A stretch of DNA of 64,000 nt, taken from assembly GCA_013289765.1 (NCBI GenBank), contig JABCZI010000004.1:124001-188000 (forward strand). Direction: 5' to 3'. A program made the translations under genes and the position numbers. The stretch comes from Acidobacteriota bacterium. GTDB taxonomy: Bacteria; Acidobacteriota; Terriglobia; Terriglobales; Acidobacteriaceae. Under the pieces are notes generated by a model. The model was not told the origin of the DNA, searched no databases, and saw only the letters and a list, made by a program, of their open reading frames with translations. Positions 8,816-52,789 of this stretch are shown one piece after another (the first letter of the stretch is position 1; each line of letters begins with the position of its first letter).

Positions 8816-10573
8816 TTATTTCTCTCCACCGGAGAAGTCGCTGCCCCAGAGCACATTGCTTCCCCACAGGACGTTGCTGCCCCAGAGCACGTTGCTTCCC
8901 CATAACACATTCGATCCCCACAGCACATTGCTGCCCCAGGGCTCTTGCGATCCCCAGAGAACGTTGCTGCCGGAAAGCGTGCTGGTTGAGTAGGTGCTGG
9001 TGGTCGAGGATGTCCCCGTCACGAATTGTGACGATCCCCAGACGGCGGCGTTGGTCCATGCGGAGGAGGTATTCCAAACGGCGGAGCGGTTGTCCGACAT
9101 GGAAACCTGGTTGGTGGTTGAGTTGAAAGTAGCGATCGGAGACATTGCGGTCCCTTTGGCTACATCGGTGTTGATCAGGGCGGCTTCGACGTCGACGTAA
9201 CCGGCGCCGACGGTGAAGACGTCATCCTGGTCGGTATAGGTGATGCCGGTCGTCGCATCCGTGGTGCTACTGTATGCAGGAAGAGACTTCCAGGCGGTCT
9301 TCATCAAGCGGGCTTTGACCTGATCGGGATTCAGGGTTGGATTCTTCTGTAGGAGGTCGGCTACGACTCCGCTGACTACGCCCGTGGCCATGCTGGTGCC
9401 GCTGAGCGTGAAGTAAGTAGAGGAGGATGCGCTGCTGCCGTCGTCCACATAATAGCTGTACGGAACGCGGTTGCCAGGATTTTGTATGTAGAGAGTGGAG
9501 TTGGGCGCAGCCAGCGAGACGAGCAGGTTGCCGGGTGCGACAAGATCGGGCTTGACGACGGCGTCAACCACCGTGGGACCCTTGGAGCTGTAGCTGGCCA
9601 TGACATCGTCGGTGCGCTGCGGTGTGCCCATCGGCTTCATCGCGCCTACGGTCAGCACGTAAGGATCATTGCCCGGCGAAGTGACCGTGCCGTAGCCGTT
9701 GGTGGACTGATAGCGGCCATTGTTGCCCGCGGCGACTACAACCACGATGCCGTTCTTCCAGGCTTTTTCGACCGCCTGGCAGAGCGGATCAAGTTTGTAG
9801 GTCTCGTATACCGCGCGTCCGAGCGAAAGGTTAATGACGCGAATGTTGTATTTCGACTTGAGAGAGATGGCTTGGTTGATGGCGGCGATGACAACGCTGT
9901 CGGTAGAGCCGCCATTGGCATCGAGGACGCGCAGGTTGACGATGTTGGCGCCGGGGGCGATTCCTTTGAAGGTCCTGGTGTAAAGCGGTCCGGTGGAGTT
10001 GAGGCCGTCGCCGGCGATTAGACCGGCGATGTGGGTGCCGTGTCCATACTGATCAACGGCGCTGGAATTTCCCGGCACGAAAGATTGTTGATACACCACC
10101 CGTGAGAGCGGCACGATGCCTTGATTGAGGTCGGAGTGATTGACGACGCCGCTATCGATCAGGGCGATGCCAATTCCGGCGCCGGTGTAGTTCGACTGCC
10201 AGGCAAATTCCGCATTGATGGCTGAAGCGGCATTGCTGAGCGATGGCGACAGGGGCCGGTCAGCGCTGATGTAAACCACGTTCGACTGGTTGGAAAGGCT
10301 CTGGATTCCGTTACCGTCAAGCGCCGCGACAAGGCCATTGATCAAGGGCAACTGGCCGAGGATCGTGCCACCCAGTTTCAGAATGTCACCGACCAGACAG
10401 AAGACAAGTCCGAGTAGCCCGCTGCACGTCACCTGAGTTCCTGGGGCATATTGCACGATGACTTGCGCCTTCTGGGTCGAAGGAAGGTTGCGCAGTTCCG
10501 GCGATATCTTCGAATCGTCAGCAAAGGCCAGCGAGGCCGTGACGATTAACAAAAGAGCTAGAAGTTTTTTCAT
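8816..10573 (-). CDS. Secreted S8 subtilisin-like serine protease with C-terminal NVLWGS repeats
   Basis: A 585-residue exported subtilase. A signal peptide (MKKLLALLLIVTASLAFA) is followed by an inhibitor-like propeptide (about 20-110), then the catalytic domain with ALIDSGV (Asp), GHGTHIAGLIAG (His), AAGNNG (oxyanion Asn region) and SGTSMATG (Ser). The triad is complete. After about residue 520 the chain becomes Ser/Thr/Trp-rich and ends in six NVLWGS hexapeptides, five of them consecutive, encoded by an 18-bp DNA repeat at about 8835-8950. Trp-Gly-rich tails of this kind occur on acidobacterial subtilases; their job may be surface attachment (inference). Confidence 0.95.
   Translation of the reverse strand: MKKLLALLLIVTASLAFADDSKISPELRNLPSTQKAQVIVQYAPGTQVTCSGLLGLVFCLVGDILKLGGTILGQLPLINGLVAALDGNGIQSLSNQSNVVYISADRPLSPSLSNAASAINAEFAWQSNYTGAGIGIALIDSGVVNHSDLNQGIVPLSRVVYQQSFVPGNSSAVDQYGHGTHIAGLIAGDGLNSTGPLYTRTFKGIAPGANIVNLRVLDANGGSTDSVVIAAINQAISLKSKYNIRVINLSLGRAVYETYKLDPLCQAVEKAWKNGIVVVVAAGNNGRYQSTNGYGTVTSPGNDPYVLTVGAMKPMGTPQRTDDVMASYSSKGPTVVDAVVKPDLVAPGNLLVSLAAPNSTLYIQNPGNRVPYSYYVDDGSSASSSTYFTLSGTSMATGVVSGVVADLLQKNPTLNPDQVKARLMKTAWKSLPAYSSTTDATTGITYTDQDDVFTVGAGYVDVEAALINTDVAKGTAMSPIATFNSTTNQVSMSDNRSAVWNTSSAWTNAAVWGSSQFVTGTSSTTSTYSTSTLSGSNVLWGSQEPWGSNVLWGSNVLWGSNVLWGSNVLWGSNVLWGSDFSGGEK
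8835..8950 (-). repeat. 18-bp coding tandem repeat (NVLWGS)
   Basis: On the + strand, near-identical 18-bp units built around CCCCAGAGCACATTGCT, with CCCCACAGGACGTTGCT-type variants, encode the hexapeptide NVLWGS six times at the end of the subtilisin. Third-position differences between units suggest an older array under selection for the peptide. Confidence 0.85.
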
Positions 10574-15990: not shown

Positions 15991-16119
15991 GTGGCGGGTA
16001 TGGCTGCGGGAATAAATGCCGCCCTAAAAGACGCCCGTCATAGGGTCAATGCGTGTAATTCGATATTACGACAGCTACGCGGAAATCGCCCCGGCACAGC
16101 TAAACTCGTGCCCTTCCAA

Positions 16120-17559: not shown

Positions 17560-17864
17560 GCGGAATTGGCTGCAAGTGAAGCGTGCAGCGGATTAGGTGC
17601 GAAGATTGTCCTCCGGACCCAGTCAGTTGTCAAGGCCAGATGGACAGTTCATGAAACGAGGCGATTACACTCCTGACCCCGTTTTAGAGAGGTCCGTTTC
17701 GACAGAGGCTCCAAGCAGACAAACAGGCGCTGCGGCGGAGTGTAACACTCTCGACAGCTAAAGCTCATGAGGCTTTTCGCACTTTACGCGGCGCTGAAGC
17801 GCCGCTCCTCCACGGTATTTCAAGCTTAACGGCGCGGCTGCAAGCCGCACCCTTTCAAAACAAG
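17560..17864. other. Intergenic region carrying palindromic repeats
   Basis: Between the GloVer gene and the 3' end of the P5C dehydrogenase gene. It contains the GCGGCGC-family repeat (17783-17815) and a second hairpin GCGGCT-GCA-AGCCGC (17834-17848). No gene is seen. Confidence 0.6.
17783..17848. repeat. Palindromic repeat, module B copy plus second hairpin
   Basis: TTTACGCGGCGCTGAAGC followed by GCCGCTCCTCCACGG at 17783-17815 is module B of the composite repeat also found at 31135, 46379, 48402 and (degraded) 56501. Here it stands without module A but near an unrelated hairpin at 17834-17848. It sits between converging or tandem gene ends and may also end transcription of the P5C dehydrogenase gene. 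Confidence 0.8.
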
Positions 17865-31098: not shown

Positions 31099-31105
31099 CG
31101 CCTCA

Positions 31106-31158
31106 GGGGCTAAAGCCCTTAAATTAAAAACGTCTTTACGCGGCGCCGCTCTTTCACG
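31106..31158. repeat. Composite palindromic repeat, modules A+B
   Basis: Module A GGGGCTAAAGCCC (31106-31118) and a shortened module B, TTTACGCGGCGCCGCTCTTT then CACG (31135-31158), lie between the BNR and PyrD gene ends. In this copy module B has lost its central GAAGC, removing the hairpin loop. Confidence 0.8.
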
Positions 31159-33839: not shown

Positions 33840-33907
33840 TCGCAGAATGGTCGGTAGCAGAGTTGGAACTGGACCGGGCAAAGTCGCGAAGCGACGCCAT
33901 TCATTAG

Positions 33908-33927
33908 CCCAGCACGTAAGTGCTGGG
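33908..33927. repeat. Short perfect hairpin
   Basis: CCCAGCAC-GTAA-GTGCTGGG between the zinc-ribbon and mtaB genes. It resembles the other small palindromes of this window and may act as a terminator, without a T-tract. Confidence 0.6.
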
Positions 33928-34059: not shown

Positions 34060-35571
34060 GTGCCCACCTACCACGTCGAAAATTTCGGATGCCGCGCCAC
34101 TCAGGCCGACGGCGCCGCCCTCGAACGCCAATTCGAAACCCGCGGCCTAACCCGCGCCGCGTCCAACCATGCCGACTTGGTCATCCTCAATACCTGCACC
34201 GTTACGAATTCCGCCGACCAGGATGCACGCGCCGCCATCCGCCGCGTCCAACGCCAGAATCCGCTGGCGAAAATCATCGTCACCGGATGCTACGCGCAGC
34301 GCGCTCCCGCAGAAATCGCCGCGCTGCCGGGCGTAACTTGCGTGATCGGCAACTCGCACAAACATCAACTCGCAGAAATCGCCCTCGATAATTTCGCAGA
34401 CGGCCCGGGAGATTTTGAGTGGCGCAGCGCTTCCAGCGCTGCGATTAGTGTTACCCATTTTCAGCCGGCTTTAGCCGCTGAGGGCAAAGCATTTATTCCA
34501 GTCGCGAATCTTACCGCCGACACCGGAGGCCGGAACCTCGAAGCCCGCCTCCACGTCTCTGACATTTTCGCTCACACCGAACTTCTCGCCGCCCCGGTAT
34601 TCGAATCTGCGAACGGTCCCGATTCAAACGACCGCACGCGTCCCAACCTGAAGGTTCAAGATGGCTGCGACAACCGCTGCTCATTCTGTGTGATCCCGAG
34701 CGTCCGTGGCCAGAGCCGGTCGCTGCAATTGCCGGAAATTATTCGCGAGGTGACTGCACTGGTGGCCGCAGGCTACCGCGAACTCGTAATCAGCGGCATC
34801 AATCTCGGCCGCTGGGGACGCGACCTTGAAACCCGCTCGCCGGGGGCCACTTTCCGGAAGCCGGAAGCCGGAAGCCGGACCCCGAACTTCCCTTCCCTCC
34901 TCCGCACCATCCTCGCGGAAACTCGAGTTGAAAAACTCCGCGTATCGAGCGTCGAGCCGATGGATTGGACCGACGATCTGATTTCCCTGGTTGCTTCTTC
35001 TCCACGCATCGCCAAACATGCGCACGTGCCGCTGCAATCCGGTAGCGACGCCGTGCTGCGCCGCATGCACCGCAAATATCGCCCCTGGCACTATCGCGAG
35101 AAGATTGAAAAGATTCGCGCCACCATGCCCACCGCCGCCATCGGCGCCGACGTCATGGCCGGATTCCCCGGCGAAACCGACGCCGAATTCGAAGCCACCC
35201 GCCGCCTCATCGAAGACCTGCCCTTCACCTACCTGCACGTCTTCACCTATTCCGCGCGCCCCGGCACCCCCGCCGCGGCCATGCCGAATCAGGTTCCGGT
35301 CCACATCGCGCGCGAACGCAACAAAATCCTGCGCGACCTTGCCGCCGAAAAAAAACTCGCCTTCATGCGATCTTTCATCGGGAAAAAGCTGGAGGCCATC
35401 ACCCTCAACGTCGTTCACAGCGATGCCGACGGAGAACGCACCGAAGCCCTCACCGACAATTTTCAGAAGTTGTATTTGAGTGGAAGGCATGAACCTAATC
35501 GGTGGCTGCCGATCCAAGTTGATGATGTGTCAGACGGTGCGTTCGTAAGTAGATTTAAGCCGCCGGCATAG
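34060..35571 (+). CDS. mtaB: tRNA t6A37 methylthiotransferase MtaB with repeat-derived insertions
   Basis: A 503-residue radical-SAM methylthiotransferase forming ms2t6A at tRNA position 37. The UPF0004 domain has FGCRATQADG, ILNTCTVTNSADQDA and TGCYAQRAP (three Fe-S Cys), and the radical-SAM core has the CxxxCxxC motif QDGCDNRCSFCVIPSVRGQS. HVPLQSGSDAVLRRMHRKY is conserved; a TRAM-like end follows. Two stretches look foreign: EWRSASSAAISVTHFQPALA, encoded by palindromic repeats at about 34421-34490, and FRKPEAGSRTP, encoded by CCGGAAG repeats at about 34852-34878. Length is above the usual 430-450. GTG at 34060 is the best start; a TTG lies at 34042. Confidence 0.93.
   Translation: MPTYHVENFGCRATQADGAALERQFETRGLTRAASNHADLVILNTCTVTNSADQDARAAIRRVQRQNPLAKIIVTGCYAQRAPAEIAALPGVTCVIGNSHKHQLAEIALDNFADGPGDFEWRSASSAAISVTHFQPALAAEGKAFIPVANLTADTGGRNLEARLHVSDIFAHTELLAAPVFESANGPDSNDRTRPNLKVQDGCDNRCSFCVIPSVRGQSRSLQLPEIIREVTALVAAGYRELVISGINLGRWGRDLETRSPGATFRKPEAGSRTPNFPSLLRTILAETRVEKLRVSSVEPMDWTDDLISLVASSPRIAKHAHVPLQSGSDAVLRRMHRKYRPWHYREKIEKIRATMPTAAIGADVMAGFPGETDAEFEATRRLIEDLPFTYLHVFTYSARPGTPAAAMPNQVPVHIARERNKILRDLAAEKKLAFMRSFIGKKLEAITLNVVHSDADGERTEALTDNFQKLYLSGRHEPNRWLPIQVDDVSDGAFVSRFKPPA
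34421..34490. repeat. Palindromic repeats inserted in frame in mtaB
   Basis: CGCAGCGCT-TCC-AGCGCTGCG (34423-34443) is a perfect 9-bp palindrome; an imperfect hairpin around CAGCCGGCTTTAGCCGCTG follows at about 34462-34482. They interrupt mtaB between the UPF0004 and radical-SAM domains without breaking the frame. Confidence 0.75.
34852..34878. repeat. CCGGAAG short tandem repeat in mtaB
   Basis: CCGGAAG-type units repeat three to four times in frame. Related CGGCTTCCGGC sequences occur in pheT (about 46317-46342) and in gene gaps near 44630, 50875 and 57680. Confidence 0.75.
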
Positions 35572-46087: not shown

Positions 46088-48361
46088 ATGAAAATTTCGC
46101 CACAGTGGGTGCGGGAATTTGTTCAGCTATCCGTCGATGACCGGCGGCTGGCGGAGGATTTGACTGGCGTCGGCATCGGGGTCGAAGGGATTAGCGGAAG
46201 TGGTGCGGACGCCGTGTTCGAGATGGAGATTGGGACGAACCGTCCGGACGCGATGAATCATTACGGAGTGGCGCGGGAGGCGGCGGCGATTTATGATTTG
46301 CCGCTCAAGGAGCTGTCCGGACTCCGGCTTCCGGCTTCCGGCGTGGCGGGGGCTAAAGCCCAGTCGAGTGTGAAGGGCGTTTACGCGGCGCCGAAGCGCC
46401 GCTCTTCCACGGGGCACGGCCGCGCAGGAAAGAAAACCTCAGCGCCTAAAGCCGCTTCTTCCCGGACTTCTCACGGCACGACTGAAGTCGTGCCCTTCCC
46501 CGGCGTGGCGTCCTCGGGCGTGGTCTCCTCGAAAAGTTCCGAACGTGAAATCTTTCCGATCACTGTCGAGGAGCCGGAACTTTGTCCGCGATTTTCGGCG
46601 CGAGTGATTCGGGGGACGACGATCAAACCTTCGCCCGAGAAGATTGCACACCGATTGAAGTTGCTGGATCAACGGCCCATCAGTAACGCGGTCGACGCGA
46701 CCAATTATGTTTTGTGGGAGATGGGAAAGCCGACGCATGTTTTCGATATGGATTTGCTGGAGGGCGGGCGGCTGGTTATTCGGCACGCCAAAAATGGCGA
46801 GAAGCTGAAGACACTGGATGGCGTTGAGCGCACGCTTTCTTCGGACGATCTTGTGGTCGCCGATGCTAAAAAAGCGGTCGGGCTCGCAGGTGTGATGGGT
46901 GGCTACGACACCATGATCACCGACAAGACTAAGAATATTGTGATTGAGTCGGCGTGGTGGGATCCGGGGACGGTGCGGAAGATGTCGCGGCGGCATGGGA
47001 TTCATACCGACGCTTCGCACCGGTTTGAGCGCGGCGCGGATTTTGAGTCGACGGTTTTGTCGTGCGATCTGGTAGCGGCGCTGATTCTGGAATCGGGAGG
47101 CGGAGAGTTGTCAGGCGGCGCGATCGATGCAGTTTCGCGACAGATGGATCAGGCTCCGATCGTGTTGCGGCTCTCCGAGGTGCATCGCATACTCGGAGGA
47201 AATCTTAGTACGGGAGAGATTTTCCGCATTCTGAAGAAGCTTGGGTTCGGCTTGATTCCCGAGGGCCAGGCCGATGCGCAGATACGGGTACAGATTCCGA
47301 GCTGGCGGCTGGATGTGGAGCGCGAGATTGATGTGATTGAAGAGATCGCGCGGCTGCATGGGTACGACAAATTCGAAAACAGTTTGCCGGCTTACAGTGG
47401 CGCGGTGGTGGATCTGCCGCACGCCGCTATGGACGCGACTTTACGGGAGCGGGCGTTGGCTCTCGGATACAACGAGGCGGTGTCGTTGACGTTTATTTCG
47501 CATGCGGCGGCGGAGACATTTTCTTCCGGGGCGGGAGTCTTGGAGTTGGAGAATCCGCTGAGCGAGGAAGCGAGCGTGATGCGGACTTCGCTCGCTCCTG
47601 GCATGCTCGACATGCTGGCGTGGAATTTGAACCGCGACGCGGAAGACGTGCGGCTGTTTGAGATGGGACGCGTCTACGAAATGCGGGACGGGGAGCGGGT
47701 TGAGCCGGCGCGCGCGTGCCTGGGTGCGACGTTGGCGGCGGTGAAGAATGGTTTGCCCATGGGCGGCGTTCTGGATGTGAGCAAGGGCGAGCATGCCGCG
47801 GCGGCTGAGGTGTTTCGCTTGTTTAAGGGCGACCTGGAAACTTTGTTGGCGGCATTTGCTTATCGCGAGTTGAGTTTTGATCGGCAGACGGCGGAATATT
47901 TTCATCCGGGACGTTCGGCGCGGGCTTTGATGGATGGGGCGGTGGTAGCGCAGTTTGGGCAACTTGCGGAAGAGGTGAAGGCGGAACGGAAGTTGCGGCA
48001 GGATGTTTTTCTGGCGGAGATCGATTTGGATGTGCTTCGTGGGCAGGGACTGCGGCAGGTGAGGTTTGCGCCTTTGGGAAAATATCCGGCGGTGGAGCGG
48101 GATTTTTCGTTCGTGTTCTCGGATGATGTGGAGTTTGAGGCAATGCGGCGAGCAGTGATGGGGTTGGGCATTTCCGAGTTGCGTGAATTTAAGCCAGTCG
48201 AGATTTTTCGTGGCGGGTCGATTGGGGCGGGGAAATATTCGATTTTGGTTCGGGCCCGATTGCAATCGGATGAGGCGACGTTGCGGGATGAGCAGATTGC
48301 GGCATGTGCGGAGAAGATTGTTGGTGCGCTGAAGGGTATGGGCGGGTCGCAGCGGGCTTAG
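46088..48361 (+). CDS. pheT: Phenylalanine-tRNA ligase beta subunit with repeat-derived insertion
   Basis: A 757-residue PheT. The core features are normal: MKISPQWVREFVQLSVDDRR, the MEIGTNRPDAMNHYGVAREA region, TVEEPELCPRFSARVIRGTT (B3/B4), DVEREIDVIEEIARLHGYDK, LENPLSEEASVMRTSLAPGM and the C-terminal anticodon-binding-like domain FAPLGKYPAVERDFSFVF. The tRNA-binding EMAP/OB domain between them is absent. Between LPLKEL (near residue 77) and IFPITVEEPE about 75 residues of Ser/Ala/Lys-rich low complexity (KGVYAAPKRRSSTGHGRAGK) are encoded by at least four palindromic repeat units. The reading frame is intact. A terminator follows at 48373. Confidence 0.95.
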   Translation: MKISPQWVREFVQLSVDDRRLAEDLTGVGIGVEGISGSGADAVFEMEIGTNRPDAMNHYGVAREAAAIYDLPLKELSGLRLPASGVAGAKAQSSVKGVYAAPKRRSSTGHGRAGKKTSAPKAASSRTSHGTTEVVPFPGVASSGVVSSKSSEREIFPITVEEPELCPRFSARVIRGTTIKPSPEKIAHRLKLLDQRPISNAVDATNYVLWEMGKPTHVFDMDLLEGGRLVIRHAKNGEKLKTLDGVERTLSSDDLVVADAKKAVGLAGVMGGYDTMITDKTKNIVIESAWWDPGTVRKMSRRHGIHTDASHRFERGADFESTVLSCDLVAALILESGGGELSGGAIDAVSRQMDQAPIVLRLSEVHRILGGNLSTGEIFRILKKLGFGLIPEGQADAQIRVQIPSWRLDVEREIDVIEEIARLHGYDKFENSLPAYSGAVVDLPHAAMDATLRERALALGYNEAVSLTFISHAAAETFSSGAGVLELENPLSEEASVMRTSLAPGMLDMLAWNLNRDAEDVRLFEMGRVYEMRDGERVEPARACLGATLAAVKNGLPMGGVLDVSKGEHAAAAEVFRLFKGDLETLLAAFAYRELSFDRQTAEYFHPGRSARALMDGAVVAQFGQLAEEVKAERKLRQDVFLAEIDLDVLRGQGLRQVRFAPLGKYPAVERDFSFVFSDDVEFEAMRRAVMGLGISELREFKPVEIFRGGSIGAGKYSILVRARLQSDEATLRDEQIAACAEKIVGALKGMGGSQRA
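46317..46500. repeat. Cluster of palindromic repeats inserted in frame in pheT
   Basis: In order: CTCCGGCTTCCGGCTTCCGG (46321-46340), module A GGGGGCTAAAGCCC (46348-46361), module B with GCGGCGCCGAAGCGCCGC (46385-46402) and trailing TCTTCCACGG, a weak AGCGCCTAAAGCCGCT (46441-46456), and the hairpin GGCACGAC-TGAA-GTCGTGCC (46475-46494). Module A+B has the same order and spacing class as the intergenic copies. Confidence 0.9.
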
Positions 48362-48372
48362 GGGCGTAGCTC

Positions 48373-48435
48373 GGGGGCTAAAGCCCCGATTTTTTATCTG
48401 TTTTACGCGGCGCCGAAAGCGCCGCTCTTCCACGG
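48373..48435 (+). terminator. Composite palindromic repeat A+B, module A acting as pheT terminator
   Basis: GGGGGCTAAAGCCCC (48373-48387) is followed by GATTTTTT, a good intrinsic terminator 12 bases after pheT. Module B follows at 48402-48435 (TTTACGCGGCGCCGAAAGCG then CCGCTCTTCCACGG). Confidence 0.85.
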
Positions 48436-52589: not shown

Positions 52590-52789
52590 AGCCGACCTGC
52601 GGGGTTGGTGATGGCGGTAACCGATTTTTGAACCAATGCTGAATGAACGGGGACTCGACTCGAACTAGGATCCGGTGTGCAACGCTCCGCCATGCGGAGA
52701 TGCCTAAAGGGTCTCGGCGGGTTCCCAACGTCTACCTGACGGTTCATTCTCGGCCCGTCACACGGCACAGTGGGTCGGCTTGATTTTTT
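52590..52789 (+). ncRNA. Candidate structured RNA, possibly 6S RNA
   Basis: A closing stem AGCCGACC (52590-52597) with GGTCGGCT (52773-52780) is followed by TGATTTTTT, an end like an intrinsic terminator. Inside, GAATGAAC (52641-52648) pairs perfectly with GTTCATTC (52742-52749) and CTCCGC-CAT-GCGGAG forms an apical hairpin at 52685-52699. The length of about 190, the long rod shape with a central open part, and a place downstream of zapA (as for ssrS in many bacteria) fit 6S RNA. I could not confirm the conserved 6S bubble sequence, so the family call is tentative. Confidence 0.5.

Follow-up and report, generated by a model that had tools for sequence, protein, structure and literature searches.

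The closest described counterparts of the repeats reported here are the REP elements and their RAYT transposases, also treated as TnpAREP or REPtron systems (Corneloup et al., 2021; PMC8266576). Di Nocera et al. (2013; PMC3733652) report REPs inside genes, tRNA synthetase genes included, and REPs within RAYT genes, together with the idea of flexible loops, appear in Quentin et al. (2018; PMC6006769); tRNA synthetase and DNA repair genes are among those with in-frame copies, and loops have been suggested as tolerated sites. Rickettsia palindromic elements (RPE; PMC2229807) are the classic case of palindromes translated in frame in conserved protein genes. Acidobacteria such as Koribacter carry tyrosine transposases described as TIRtrons or TIRYT, whose ends belong to repeat families and whose repeats can be dimeric (PMC3733652).

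Here we describe palindromic repeats that lie in frame in pheT within a window of 64,000 nucleotides, the whole stretch of DNA that was analysed. The 4.8-Mb assembly is of the Candidatus Sulfotelmatobacter type, the best named PheT match being a Candidatus Sulfotelmatobacter MAG. Our repeats resemble REP/RAYT systems in being short palindromes present in repeated copies, in flanking RAYT genes in inverted orientation and in lying in frame within some genes. They differ in having GAAG rather than GT[AG]G or CGTC at the hairpin foot, in a unit built of two unlike hairpins, in the stacking of several families in the same loop of one gene over a genus, and in a hairpin, A, through which the RAYT frame continues to form the C-terminus at three loci (L315, L306 and L324). 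Like RPE they are palindromic elements in frame in conserved protein genes; unlike RPE, from which we set them apart by description, they belong to another phylum, have another unit and come with a candidate transposase with matching ends. They can be likened to the TIRtrons by description, for which the available part of PMC3733652 reports no in-gene insertions. Our literature search turned up no title on such elements in Sulfotelmatobacter; as far as it reached, what is new is the families themselves, the GAAG foot at their RAYT ends and the way the same loops are filled over and over across a genus. We think it quite probable that non-autonomous REP-type elements are stacked in the pheT insert, that RAYTs mobilise them, and that they persist where they can be translated and fall in disordered loops.

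The composite insert in pheT and its element families

The features discussed below have the following positions in the window.

46088..48361, plus strand: pheT, phenylalanine-tRNA ligase beta subunit, 757 aa (ORF, Pfam and PDB matches to PheRS)
46316..46342, plus strand: heptamer direct-repeat tract (CGGCTTC)n, opening part of the insert (direct-repeat family D6)
46338..46348, plus strand: CCGGCGTGGCG, left member of an 11-bp direct repeat flanking the insert
46348..46361, plus strand: head hairpin A of the A-B unit (GGGGGCTAAAGCCC; copy counts below)
46385..46412, plus strand: hairpin B and tail of the A-B unit (copy counts below)
46438..46454, plus strand: imperfect head hairpin A' of the A'-C unit, with a CTCA foot (repeat family D4; A-C architecture in aligned copies)
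46475..46499, plus strand: hairpin C of the A'-C unit with its CCTTCC tail, reading GTTEVVPF (copy counts and model R1 below)
46500..46510, plus strand: CCGGCGTGGCG, right member of the 11-bp direct repeat
48370..48435, plus strand: intergenic A-B unit just downstream of pheT (repeat families D4, D5 and D9)
31102..31150, plus strand: A hairpin and truncated B hairpin (repeat families D4 and D5; sequence)
17783..17815, plus strand: B hairpin and tail, then a D-type hairpin (repeat families D5, D9 and D11; sequence)
16092..16117, plus strand: decayed C hairpin with tail (repeat family D20)

Between LPLKEL and the FPITVEEPELCPR block, the PheT linker measures 83 aa here versus 16 aa in outgroups such as L124, so that the insert amounts to ∼67 additional codons. 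Downstream of it lie the PheT domains B3_4, B5, CLM and FDX-ACB (Pfam), and upstream a PDB search returns N-terminal PheT matches. In order, the insert comprises a heptamer tract and two units of two hairpins each, first A-B and then A'-C. The original prediction had reported a tract and the modules A, B and C in an open frame extended by 60–75 codons, with the same units also present between genes. All of these modules were found where it had placed them, the frame is open throughout, and the added length falls within its range. What its module list overlooked was the second, imperfect A hairpin and the heptamer nature of the CCGGCTTCCGG tract, a repeat that also occurs elsewhere in the window, for example as (CGGCTTC)3 at 34857 on the minus strand.

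The 11-bp direct repeat around the insert is possibly a target-site duplication; it is the one flanking repeat at pheT, and inspection by eye of the listed filled and empty linkers made no target-site duplication evident. In an Rfam search of the window the insert matched no family; scores over gathering were obtained for Acido-Lenti-1 RNA (33882–33927, minus strand) and 6S RNA (52591–52780, plus strand). The window further contains an 18-nt tandem repeat (family D1, 8819–8980). The PheT itself is of a type without the tRNA-binding OB-fold (B2) domain, which Pfam does not find and over which the PDB alignment jumps E. coli residues 38–154; the complete PheT proteins of relatives are similarly short, judged by length.

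The modules are dispersed over the genome. At ≤ 3 mismatches, B with its tail and C with its tail were each found in 21 copies (reversed-pattern control, 0), and module A was found exactly seven times (control, 0). Aligned genome copies share one plan, in which a head hairpin A, in the form GGGGCTRAAGCCC or GCGGCTRAAGCCG, is followed by ∼20 variable bases and then by either B or C, each with a tail of its own; the A hairpin was recognised ahead of 35 of the 42 B and C copies. Family D is a third type that occupies the same slot in relatives, and the A-B, A-C and A-D units, each of two hairpins, are roughly 65–75 nt long. Six of 18 aligned copies of hairpin C retain a stem pair in which both bases have changed. 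Model R1, from which the pheT copy had been left out, found that copy with an E value of 1.8e-13 and reached 70 places at E ≤ 0.01, B type among them, in the 150 of 1503 candidates that this count covers.

These are short palindromic repeats in many dispersed copies, as is typical of REP/RAYT systems. The bases at the hairpin foot are of another kind: in 17 of 18 copies, the minus strand has GAAG ahead of hairpin C. GTAG, the one form of the canonical REP guide GT[AG]G that was counted, occurred in 0 of 18 copies on either strand, and for the end tetranucleotides of the GTAG and CGTC superfamilies (Di Nocera et al., 2013) the result beside hairpin C, the hairpin covered by this count rather than A, was GTAG 0/18 and CGTC 1/18.

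The PheT linker across relatives

The PheT set comprised 60 rows (59 named loci and the window's own), of which 55 were used; in L106, L120 and L142 the match did not include the start, and an anchor was missing from L109 and L144. The linkers of these 55 rows held A-B, A-C or A-D units, two units, an inverted A-C (sisters L104 and L112), hairpin E, heptamers, a repeat nested within C (L115), or were plain and short, with the labels for heptamers, E, nested repeats and decayed copies assigned partly by eye. Against this diversity, most outgroups have a 16-aa linker. Where the linker is filled, the native codons are replaced rather than cleanly split. The original prediction had named, as a result that would count against it, one conserved segment shared by most relatives. 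Many relatives do carry something at this site, yet its family, number and orientation differ, and close outgroups are empty. The earlier reading is thus refined: several element families are involved, the same loop was struck repeatedly, and the native linker was replaced as well as lengthened.

Many relatives have a PheT linker rich in Ser, Ala and Lys, as would be expected of an ordinary low-complexity loop conserved for protein function, whose resemblance to repeats is incidental. We give this explanation very little credence. Linker DNA matched unrelated loci in 27 of 55 rows, versus 0/55 and 0/54 for in-gene controls, and the copy counts of B and C in the genome contradict it as well. 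When whole pheT genes were compared, unrelated-locus matches fell in the linker (24 species) and in a loop near residue 410 (three species), and nowhere else. This second loop (L124 numbering) contains in-frame repeat DNA in L102, L103 and L141; the L141 PheT is 840 aa long.

On a tree of the PheT core, in which 32 of 52 inner branches were well supported, parsimony required nine changes for the presence of A-X and 24 for the composite state, counts that carry no direction as to which changes are gains. Sister species differ in their contents: L125 is empty and L143, a partial row with 35% of the columns, holds A-C; L123 is empty and L119 holds a decayed A-C; and L091 (A-B) and L095 (E) contain different families at ∼0.04 changes per site.

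Some points speak against a stack of REP-type elements. No consistent target-site duplication is seen, filled linkers do not split the native codons cleanly, and A-C occurs at the same place and with the same spacing in distant carriers (L143 and L093, and decayed in L119), which could also come from one old insertion with 14 losses. A competing account, which we regard as unlikely though the most serious of the alternatives, holds that a single A-C insertion at the base of the wider clade was inherited and then reshaped by recombination between dispersed repeats (B/C/D swaps behind a constant A hairpin, nested insertions and heptamer slippage), with little transposition into the gene. It would explain why the position of A hardly varies among many species and why several linkers have possible C remnants, identified by eye, after B or D. 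The A-to-X distance also fits, being 33 or 36 in 22/22 measured units of PheT linkers versus 30–38, mostly 33–35, over 35 measured genome copies, in-gene copies included. A single gain of A-X would require 14 losses. Against the account, many outgroups retain the same 16-aa linker. The inverted A-C of L104 and L112 demands a further event, the E and heptamer fillings have no A hairpin in common, and other genes possess filled loops of their own, as described below.

Third codon positions bear on the age of the units. For hairpin C in the PheT linkers of seven species, picked at ≤ 4 mismatches and hence favouring well-kept copies, 21/21 pairs were identical at all eight third positions, compared with 0.46 identity at 4-fold sites in the remaining pheT; for hairpin B in 12 species, third positions were 0.825 identical versus 0.48 at 4-fold sites of pheT. 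This excess indicates that the units arrived or were renewed after the species split, or are held at the DNA level. The latter would follow if the hairpins were retained in pheT for a role in DNA or RNA, e.g. as mRNA structure or a protein binding site. The identity of the C third positions favours such a role, which we nevertheless consider improbable: the 171-nt insert RNA did not fold better than shuffled sequences (z −0.95), many species are without any hairpin at the site, and families substitute for each other between sister species.

The relatives are almost all metagenome-assembled genomes, and some rows have defects. The L115 contig is labelled Betaproteobacteria, yet its PheT groups with Sulfotelmatobacter, so that it is probably mis-binned or mislabelled; pheT of L137 (578–2618), with an A-C linker, gives an ORF of 438 aa and is frameshifted downstream of the insert, either truly or by an assembly error; and L109 includes an ambiguous stretch. 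An assembly or binning artefact as the source of the inserts is nonetheless the explanation in which we place the least belief of all, since many MAGs, from different projects, likewise have such inserts in an open frame.

In-frame copies in other loops and genes

LipB, DusB and MoaA each have one loop with variable repeat fillings over the genus. The MoaA loop ranges from short linkers (e.g. RRPNGSNGEPL) to A-C, A-D, A-B, or C with a nested repeat, the last in L280, which resembles the L115 PheT. Linkers were extracted from 19 of 30 DusB loci and 20 of 30 MoaA loci (anchors failed in the rest), and from 28 of 30 LipB loci, 27 of them with ≥ 30 nt. Matches of linker DNA to unrelated loci were obtained in 22/27 cases for LipB (in-gene controls 0/28 and 2/28), 12/19 for DusB (0/19 and 0/19) and 10/20 for MoaA (0/20 and 0/20). 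Because the database used for these matches included loci fetched for carrying elements or transposases, the test was repeated on 149 loci fetched for other reasons, with self-matches dropped; the result was 27/55 for PheT, 21/27 for LipB, 12/19 for DusB and 10/20 for MoaA, with controls unchanged.

Within the pheT host genome, frames were read over 31 distinct C-type copies, 21 from the mismatch search and 10 further model matches; an eleventh new locus, L167, duplicates L036 and is not among them. At least two of the 10 (L172 and L174) look D-like rather than C. Nine of the 31 lie in frame within ORFs. The forward copies are in PheT and MoaA; the reverse copies are in LipB, a C26 peptidase, a YCF48-like protein, DusB, agmatine deiminase (AguA), a YoaA/DinG helicase and one hypothetical protein without a Pfam family. 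The elements are thus present in frame in conserved protein genes, as RPE are. Open frames over three more C copies were not accepted as in-gene, there being no Pfam match for L044 and L045 and one below cut-off for L049; a fourth, L035, which lay outside the Pfam scan, was left out of the count. Among the 21 B copies, PheT is the one family-confirmed gene, the open frames of the other B copies being outside the family scan.

For MoaA, agmatine deiminase and LipB, the PDB alignment is interrupted over the element stretch and picks up again beyond it; that of DusB ends shortly before the element, with no resumption after it. For PheT, an AlphaFold2 model from 29 rows had a mean pLDDT of 77.3 and a pTM of 0.50. 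Residues 77–152 had pLDDT < 50, with ∼30 in the disordered loop. The insert is accordingly predicted by the model as a disordered linker following the N-terminal domain; the best PDB matches of the model are PheRS beta chains with TM ≤ 0.48, which leaves domain placement uncertain. We infer that the loop is near-neutral for the enzyme.

Reading frames were surveyed in the linkers of the four genes and in five more genes of the pheT host genome. Forward C copies use one frame in 12/12 cases, where the consensus has two stop-free frames; reverse C copies, with three stop-free frames at hand, are read as REGHDFSRA or a close variant in 10/12, the exceptions being the sisters L104 and L112. D uses one frame (4/4), and B one frame in 13 PheT rows and a different one in MoaA L274. 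Since related rows are not independent, frame use is a bias, not a law. We abandoned a stricter rule, by which A and X would always stand a multiple of three apart in coding copies. It holds for PheT, but the distance is 35 in five reverse copies of other genes, and MoaA reads A in another frame.

RAYT transposases as candidate movers

PF01797 genes were present in 43 of 45 genomes of the genus. We read 92 transposase loci, 50 of which gave an ORF passing the motif filter. At two of them, both in relatives, the RAYT gene is bounded by inverted A-C units, the arrangement expected of a REPtron: [C'-A'] and [A-C] enclose the gene in L315 (genome G009) and likewise in L306 (G025), where the loop of C is a variant one. 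Taking the density of C near pheT as a basis, we put the chance of finding an inverted C pair among 50 RAYTs at roughly 0.0008. In L324 (G006), B'-A' stands ahead of the RAYT gene and inverted and direct A-B units follow it, so that the right end is not a simple A-B unit. In all three loci the RAYT frame runs on through hairpin A into the C-terminus (WPSAAEAA in L315). L315 and L324 scored 126.3 and 113.7 bits against the NCBIfam model NF047646 (REP_Tyr_transpos; cut-off 80), which places them in the RAYT family, and both also match PF01797.

Other hairpin families flank other transposases. E hairpins lie on both sides of L052, L321, L333 and L347, and F hairpins bound L053 and L319; L052 and L053 belong to the genome that carries the pheT insert. 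An A-B unit adjoins the E-bounded L052. No RAYT with clean A-D ends was found among the 50 RAYT ORFs. In L053 an F hairpin lies in frame inside its own RAYT ORF (1701–1740, reverse complement of the locus), with more F copies on both sides. An array of A-B and inverted A-B units surrounds the RAYT of L324 (760–1960), which we take to resemble BIME arrangements.

None of the six Y1_Tnp loci of the pheT host genome has A-B or A-C ends, a further point against a stack of REP-type elements. The transposase for A-C would therefore have to be lost, absent from the assembly or acting across families.

That a mobile palindrome can settle in genes where the frame permits, as originally proposed, agrees with the dispersal of the modules and with sister species that are empty or differently filled. 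The in-frame copies in other housekeeping genes and the RAYT genes of relatives bounded by the same elements point the same way. On the reading we prefer, a stack of REP-type elements, a RAYT would act on single-stranded hairpins and scatter copies over the genome; in relatives, RAYT units do end in A-C and, less cleanly, in A-B. Of the insertions into genes, only those that are in frame, stop-free and located in a disordered loop at the surface would survive. Once a loop contains an element, it would be a safe place for the next one, which would explain why elements of different families have entered the same PheT linker time after time, in either orientation and at times one inside another, and recombination between copies may aid turnover. 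Both the transposition step and the translation of the loop are deduced here. Genome parasites are thus probably turned into translated protein.

In-gene REPs and Rickettsia palindromes have mostly been seen as isolated examples. In this genus of soil bacteria, the PheT, LipB, DusB and MoaA loops can be followed through dozens of related genomes, where they range from empty to filled, refilled, inverted or nested, and candidate transposases come with them. More tentatively, a few permissive loops in housekeeping enzymes may be genus-wide safe harbours, and RAYT elements may be translation-compatible, so that selfish intergenic repeats would steadily become new disordered protein segments; we read the elements as translation-compatible because hairpin A forms the C-terminus of its own transposase and because in-gene copies use preferred frames. 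This system allows one to measure the conversion of selfish repeats into protein, selection on frame choice and the insertion tolerance of an essential enzyme.
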